From Jiulongibacter sp. (GTDB lineage Bacteria; Bacteroidota; Bacteroidia; Cytophagales; Spirosomataceae), in assembly GCA_024645245.1 (NCBI GenBank), contig JAHEBN010000026.1, positions 1 through 32,855 of the forward strand: DNA of 32,855 nt, in the 5' to 3' direction. The number at the start of each line of letters is the position of its first letter. Position 1 is the stretch's first letter. Shown one piece after another: positions 21,088-21,607 of this stretch. The position numbers were made by a program, and so were the translations under genes. Under the pieces are notes generated by a model. The model saw only the letters and a list, made by a program, of their open reading frames with translations, had not been told where the DNA came from and ran no database searches.

Positions 21088-21103
21088 CACTCCCAAATAA
21101 ATG

Positions 21104-21177
21104 GAGGTTGTAGCTCAGTTGGTTAGAGCACTGGTTTGTGGTGCCGGGGGTCGTGGGTTCGAGCCCCATCAGCCTCC
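21104..21177 (+). tRNA. tRNA-His (anticodon GTG)
   Basis: A 74-base cloverleaf. The acceptor GAGGTTG pairs with CAGCCTC (one T-G pair), the anticodon loop is TTGTGGT giving GTG, and the T arm is GTGGGTTCGAGCCCCAT. A G precedes position 1 at 21103 and the discriminator is C, together giving the G(-1):C73 pair that marks tRNA-His. The CCA end is not encoded. Its 3' half and terminator are repeated downstream in decayed form. Confidence 0.96.
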
Positions 21178-21186
21178 CCCATTTTT

Positions 21187-21217
21187 AAAGACGATTCGAG
21201 AGAGTCGTCTTTTTTTT
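21187..21217 (+). terminator. tRNA-His terminator with GAGA tetraloop (copy T1)
   Basis: The stem spans 21190-21209 (8 bp, closing C-G) with a GAGA loop. It is extended by AAA/TTT pairing to 11 bp and followed by a T run to 21217. It lies 9 bases after the tRNA. Confidence 0.88.
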
Positions 21218-21221
21218 GTAC

Positions 21222-21251
21222 CCCTCCCCAACCCCCCTCCATTGGGGAGGG
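21222..21251. repeat. REP-like GC-rich palindrome
   Basis: CCCTCCCCAA (21222-21231) and TTGGGGAGGG (21242-21251) are perfect 10-bp arms around ten bases. A diverged copy lies at 21447-21480 (CCCTCC ... GGAGGG). The GC-rich arms stand out from the surrounding DNA. Confidence 0.7.
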
Positions 21252-21346
21252 ACTTATAATTTAGTTGAAATATATAATTTTAGTTGCAGGGGTCGTGGTT
21301 TTGAGTCGGATCGCCGCATCGCAAATCAGCCTCTCCCATTTTTAAA

Positions 21347-21374
21347 GTCGATTCGCGAGAGTCGTCTTTTTTTT
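21347..21374 (+). terminator. Terminator copy T2 with GCGA tetraloop
   Basis: Same 20-base frame as T1, with one T-T mismatch in the second pair of the stem and a GCGA loop, followed by eight T. It would still be able to act as a backup terminator. Confidence 0.65.
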
Positions 21375-21607
21375 AACCTTTTCTATCAAAGAAGTATTAA
21401 AACTTAAACTATCCATCTAAATCGATCCTGATTCGAGAGAGAGTCATCCCTCCACATCCCTACTCCCGTTGAAGGAGGGACTAATTATGTCGAAGAATTA
21501 TTTATTTTTTGTAGTGCAATGGGTTGTGGGTTTGTGTCGGATTGCGAATCGTCCATCAGCCGCCTCATTTATAGAGTCGATACGCAATAGTCATCTTTTT
21601 TTAGCTC

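Follow-up and report, generated by a model that had tools for sequence, protein, structure and literature searches.

The window analysed here, a stretch of 32,855 nucleotides from Jiulongibacter sp., contains an intact tRNA-His(GTG) gene at 21103..21181 on the plus strand, which was called by ARAGORN and matched by Rfam RF00005 with 59.2 bits at 21104-21177. This parent gene is followed by its intrinsic terminator T1, AAAGACGATTCGAGAGAGTCGTCTTTTTTTT (21183..21217, plus strand), which was recognised from its sequence and from the orthologous terminator AAGGCGATTCGCAAGAGTCGCC in the genome G232. Next comes a GC-rich palindrome, CCCCTCCCCAACCCCCCTCCATTGGGGAGGG (21220..21252, no strand assigned), which was found by sequence and begins the spacer between the copies; its core, CCNTTGGGGAGGG, occurs a single time in the window genome (G000, a 4.55 Mb assembly in 315 contigs). 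Copy 2 of the tRNA end (21284..21374, plus strand) is composed of the tRNA-His variable region and the 5' side of the T-arm, an insert, the 3' strand of the acceptor stem, and the terminator. Farther downstream lie a possible terminator remnant that opens the second repeat unit (21429..21446, plus strand), a second, degenerate GC-rich palindrome identified by repeat search and alignment (21450..21480, no strand assigned), and copy 3 (21509..21603, plus strand), which comprises a decayed 3' portion of tRNA-His, the insert and the terminator. Both copies were delimited by the repeat search and the shuffle test.

The original prediction held that the 3' half of the tRNA and the terminator recur twice downstream, and the alignments bear this out. 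The 50-nt block that comprises the acceptor 3' strand and the terminator (21168-21217) returns at 21325-21374 with 94% identity and at 21554-21603 with 64% identity (ungapped), and the T-arm block 21136-21170 returns at 21278-21312 (71%) and 21509-21543 (69%). The best downstream match to the tRNA-His end scores 77.9 bits, against a maximum of 29.2 bits when the 1200 bases after tRNA-His were dinucleotide-shuffled 1000 times, and copy 3 still scores 40.1 bits in the same test when copy 2 is masked; both copies are far above chance. When copies 2 and 3 are compared with each other and with their surroundings included, they are 74.7% identical across 154 nt, with a score of 89.7 bits where the best shuffle reached 25.6, and this likeness takes in palindrome and spacer as well as insert and terminator. 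This implies that a second event duplicated a whole unit of approximately 230 bp, of which the palindrome and AT-rich spacer that had been noticed ahead of each copy are indeed a part. As for the predicted fourth element at 21429-21446, a 12-nt match, GATTCGAGAGAG, is present and fits its place in the repeat unit, but its score of 22.9 bits lies within the shuffle range, and it is plausible from its position only.

Decay is evident in the window copies, as one of the proposed explanations (a decayed tRNA array) would have it. ARAGORN and Rfam call the parent gene alone, and the copies thus do not qualify as able to fold as tRNAs. At the gathering cut-off and at E<=1, Rfam yielded nothing beyond tRNA and chance matches. 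In an alignment read by eye, terminators T2 and T3 share a stem mismatch (GTCGA against TCGTC), which suggests that they are relaxed rather than selected. The best reading of the window copies is that they are decaying remnants.

The insertion shared by copies 2 and 3, which had been noted as beginning TCGGAT and as absent from the tRNA, is confirmed at 21306-21324 and 21537-21554, and it turns out to be a dispersed, covarying mini-hairpin. Its consensus reads GYGGT and then a hairpin with a 4-bp stem, NCGR-CNNY-YCGN, 16-17 bp in all. In copy 2, the insert TCGGATCGCCGCATCGCAA (21306..21324, minus strand) lies between the T-loop sequence TTTGAG and ATCAGCC and has one mismatch to GYGGTNCGRCNNYYCGN; the reverse complement of 21306-21322 reads GCGAT-GCGG-CGAT-CCGA, and its place and orientation match those of TCGGAGTGCCGCACCACCT in the tRNA-His copies of G232. 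In copy 3, the insert TCGGATTGCGAATCGTCC (21537..21554, minus strand) aligns to that of copy 2 with a gap. Because both window inserts are decayed, they are assigned mainly by their position and by comparison with G232. If the hairpin is truly inserted, the tRNA loops provide clean pairs of parent and copy in which insertion events would be readable base by base. For tRNA-His of an Emticicia MAG, the parent has GGGTCGTGG-G-TTCGAGCCCC and the copy has GGGTCGTGG-ACGGTGCGACGTTTCGC-TTCGAGCCCC, and in parent-copy comparisons the insert takes the place of one to three G bases ahead of the loop. Most copies have such an insert, placed in the T-loop or, in the case of tRNA-Thr, in the D-loop.

The outer stem pair of the hairpin covaries strongly. 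The search pattern left both outer-pair bases free, and the outer pair is Watson-Crick in 63 of 79 distinct instances compared to 25.9 expected (C-G 31, G-C 16 and T-A 15), with p<1e-4, a value that overstates independence because the instances are partly related by descent; after collapsing by hairpin and 6-nt flank, the count is 51 of 65, against 22.6 expected. For the inner pair, 76 of the 79 instances are canonical, compared to 57.9 expected. The idea that the ACCA-like end of the reverse-complement insert came from a mature-CCA tRNA 3' end was considered and dropped because the stem covaries, and an IS91-like GTTC target was dropped because the tetranucleotide ahead of the insert varies. 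Copies at tRNA-Pro and tRNA-Asn of the window genome and at tRNA-Arg(ACG) of G232 carry inserts of other kinds. A further mini-insert, AACAACGTGTTCCG, is found on the acceptor side of tRNA-His in the Emticicia MAG (L252 1-520, minus strand), and some mini-inserts are tandem; a tRNA-Asp copy in G170 (L259 131-350) holds four copies of the mini-insert CCCAACCAGGCGTT. In some copies in G232 (L127) and G021 (L004), two inverted hairpins surround the T-loop or the acceptor and form a larger, imperfect, REPIN-like palindrome.

Repeats downstream of tRNA-His are present in several related genera, so the refuting condition that relatives would lack them did not hold. Partial copies of tRNA-His were also found in G021, G169, G170, G174 and G232 and in two MAGs. 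Copy number differs even between close relatives in genus group g22: Lacihabitans sp. LS3-19 (G021) carries a pair of 139-bp units, almost identical to each other, after tRNA-His, Emticicia sp. CRIBPO (G170) has three units at a spacing of 179 bp, G169 has two units and G174 has one, and G168, G167 and G173 have no copies at tRNA-His. G232, a single-contig genome from a third genus (g49), has two at a spacing of 261 bp. When GTDB r220 was scanned with GGTGCGACNNNTCGCTTCGANYCC, 11 contigs matched, eight of them from Lacihabitans, Emticicia, Runella and one Cytophagaceae MAG; the other three are actinobacterial and were taken as chance matches. The 5' extent of the copies is highly variable, and the copies of any one genome match the tRNA and terminator of that same genome, which implies that the arrays form repeatedly or that the copies convert with the parent.

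The phenomenon is by no means confined to tRNA-His, and an explanation limited to that locus was rejected because copies lie at other tRNA loci and at 5S rRNA loci. In Lacihabitans, Emticicia, Runella and g49 (G232), copies are located beside tRNA-His, Val, Asp, Glu, Met and Arg and beside 5S rRNA, and most downstream copies end with the terminator of the parent gene. Arrays were found at tRNA-Val, Met, Glu and Arg(ACG) in G232; at tRNA-Glu, Pro and Asn in the window genome; at tRNA-Asp in Emticicia C21 and Runella zeae; at 5S rRNA in G168, G169 and G173; and at the 3' end of one protein gene in G021. In the Runella group, three g47 genomes, G178 (L327), G181 (L325) and G184 (L326), have up to five 75-bp units directly ahead of the intact tRNA-Thr(CGT), each made of a 5' portion of the tRNA whose D-loop holds the insert; the Runella zeae contig belongs to one other g47 genome. 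In a survey of 64 tRNAs with 100 shuffles each, a downstream match above all shuffles was obtained for 8 of 35 tRNAs in G232 and 4 of 29 in the window genome (fewer than one expected), although some of these positives, for example Gln and Leu of G232, are short matches and not certain. An array follows tRNA-Arg(CCT) in G168, and a related array is found in G169. At the latter, a minus-strand frame (G169:C8, L051) begins close to a 3' fragment of tRNA-Arg; its N-terminus, MATTKLKLRPDKSNRTGDLAIY, is tyrosine-recombinase-like, and the frame is probably an integrated element at the tRNA-Arg array.

The hairpin also occurs outside RNA genes. Genome-wide counts were obtained by pattern searches; a first loose motif, TGGTGCGRCATC, with one mismatch allowed gave only about a twofold excess over the control and was replaced by the structured pattern. 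Among 390 genomes of the order, exact GCGGTNCGACGTTTCG has 75 matches in families f1 and f4, namely 41 in f1 (21 of 79 genomes) and 34 in f4 (4 of 13 genomes, 26 of the matches in G339), whereas the reversed-pattern control has one match in both families together. In approximately 300 other genomes of the order, there are 2 matches compared to 11 for the control, so the hairpin is nearly restricted to the two families. Outside RNA genes, it is found in or beside G-rich intergenic palindromes and also after GTCACCCTGAGCCTGTCGAAG. In G339 (L310-L319), it lies at the centre of a dispersed repeat that is roughly 100 bp long, has TAGAGTTTATGAATAA as terminal inverted repeats and is present in at least 10 near-identical copies. 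This repeat resembles a MITE family, with the hairpin nested inside it; elsewhere the hairpin stands alone without terminal repeats. The dispersal marks the hairpin as an independent DNA repeat, and its presence in both orientations fits a DNA element better than a single RNA function.

Based on the results presented above, we incline, with slightly better than even confidence, toward a combination of local partial duplication with a dispersed mini-hairpin repeat, the window copies being decaying, 5'-truncated and tandem. The tRNA-His end and its terminator may have been copied in tandem, with 5' truncation, by local partial duplication, and the hairpin would be a very small repetitive DNA element of the host bacterial family that is located in the T-loops of the copies; it could have entered either before or after the duplication. 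It may have spread as a single-strand DNA structure that favours stem-loop sites, and the copies that carry it would then expand and contract through replication slippage or unequal recombination, while selection would preserve one intact gene beside them and the copies themselves would be non-functional by-products. Several observations sit less comfortably with the dispersed-hairpin explanation: no mobility enzyme was tied to the hairpin, some copies hold inserts of other kinds, the window inserts are decayed, and the insert keeps to the T-loop or D-loop, or their immediate neighbourhood, with a striking regularity that a random palindrome-seeking repeat would not obviously predict. A more far-reaching proposal, which we consider possible but regard with some doubt, is that a previously undescribed process in Spirosomataceae and a related family writes the 16-17 nt hairpin GYGGT-NCGR-CNNY-YCGN into stem-loop sites, especially the loops of duplicated tRNA and 5S genes, so that hairpin-marked partial copies form repeatedly beside essential RNA genes. 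If true, this hairpin would be among the smallest mobile or templated-insertion units in bacteria, and if it is truly inserted rather than locally generated, the way in which a 16-bp sequence could spread through a family of bacteria becomes a question of mechanism. No description of the insert sequences or of the array layout was found in the open-access literature.

In E. coli, the tandem repeats that follow the tRNA gene of the tyrT locus hold the last bases of that gene, and the rtT RNA is derived from them. The suggested resemblance of the window to tyrT is correct as to layout only, with tandem repeats of the 3' end and terminator downstream of a tRNA gene; specificity for tRNA-His or for 3' ends did not survive, as copies occur at several tRNAs, at 5S rRNA, at one protein-gene 3' end and, as 5' parts, upstream of tRNA-Thr. 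A further difference from tyrT is the shared hairpin inside the copies. A corresponding role, in which the copies would be small RNA genes that yield a half-tRNA with an extended T-arm through T1 read-through or tRNA 3' processing and act as sponges or decoys, appears unlikely. The terminators that close most downstream units, the covarying stems and the recurrence of arrays at the same genes in several genera would all suit it, but the insert is found in either orientation and also away from RNA genes, the 5' ends of the copies differ greatly, and close relatives lack arrays. Moreover, T2 and T3 share a stem mismatch and decay with the rest of their copies, and no Bacteroidota-type promoter was seen by eye ahead of the window copies.

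Another rival reading, which would make the hairpin a REP/REPIN moved by a RAYT (Y1 tyrosine transposase; Y1_Tnp, PF01797) and the arrays BIME-like amplifications, is likewise improbable. The hairpin resembles REP, BIME and REPIN sequences as a short palindromic extragenic repeat with a G-rich head (GTGG or GCGG, then the hairpin), inverted A(+)/B(-) pairs in G021 and G232, and tandem amplification, and most of these genomes have Y1_Tnp genes. Compared to the REP pattern of a GTRG-type head in an extragenic, multicopy repeat, it has a GYGGT head and up to 26 exact copies in one genome; however, it is only 16-17 bp long with a stem of just 4 bp, and it is located in the tRNA loops of pseudo-copies. 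No linked RAYT was found: the motif is absent within approximately 1.5 kb of every Y1_Tnp locus read, where the flanks hold other palindromes, and G326, with six exact hairpin copies, gave no match to Y1_Tnp. The repetitive hairpin-forming elements found in sponge mitochondria (PMC2800124), like double-hairpin elements, are short hairpins that repeatedly invade intergenic regions by an unknown mechanism; in contrast to these, the present hairpin is bacterial, has one conserved loop and head, and prefers RNA-gene copies. REP/REPIN sequences and the sponge mitochondrial elements are the nearest in kind.

Serial integration scars, which had been offered as another explanation, would make the copies attachment-site remnants of elements integrated at tRNA 3' ends, and we regard this as very unlikely. 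The T-loop is often the start of the shared part, and the tyrosine-recombinase-like frame, whose N-terminus was read by eye, adjoins the tRNA-Arg array in G169, but the end of that element has no hairpin, and the seven flanking genes tested in the window have no integrase domain in Pfam. In addition, the tRNA sequence extends upstream of the insert, and the idea leaves the insert unexplained; the insert is also present at 5S rRNA, at the protein-gene 3' end and in tRNA-Thr D-loops. Retroposition, in which a 5'-truncated cDNA made from the primary transcript and holding its 3' end and terminator inserts beside the gene, would account for copies that are truncated within the tRNA and stop after the terminator, but it is extremely unlikely, given that the units carry DNA past the terminator, that the tRNA-Thr upstream copies have no 3' end, and that the insert is again unexplained. 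Tandem duplication with a dispersed hairpin remains our preferred reading, and tRNA-adjacent repeats in these genomes do not in themselves count as evidence of integrated islands or of rtT-like RNAs.

The hairpin arrays may also cause assembly breaks at tRNA and 5S loci. In the window genome, contigs end next to tRNA-Val (C2:38-112, L224) and inside a hairpin-bearing RNA-gene copy (end of C206, L140), which suggests that the arrays break short-read assemblies.
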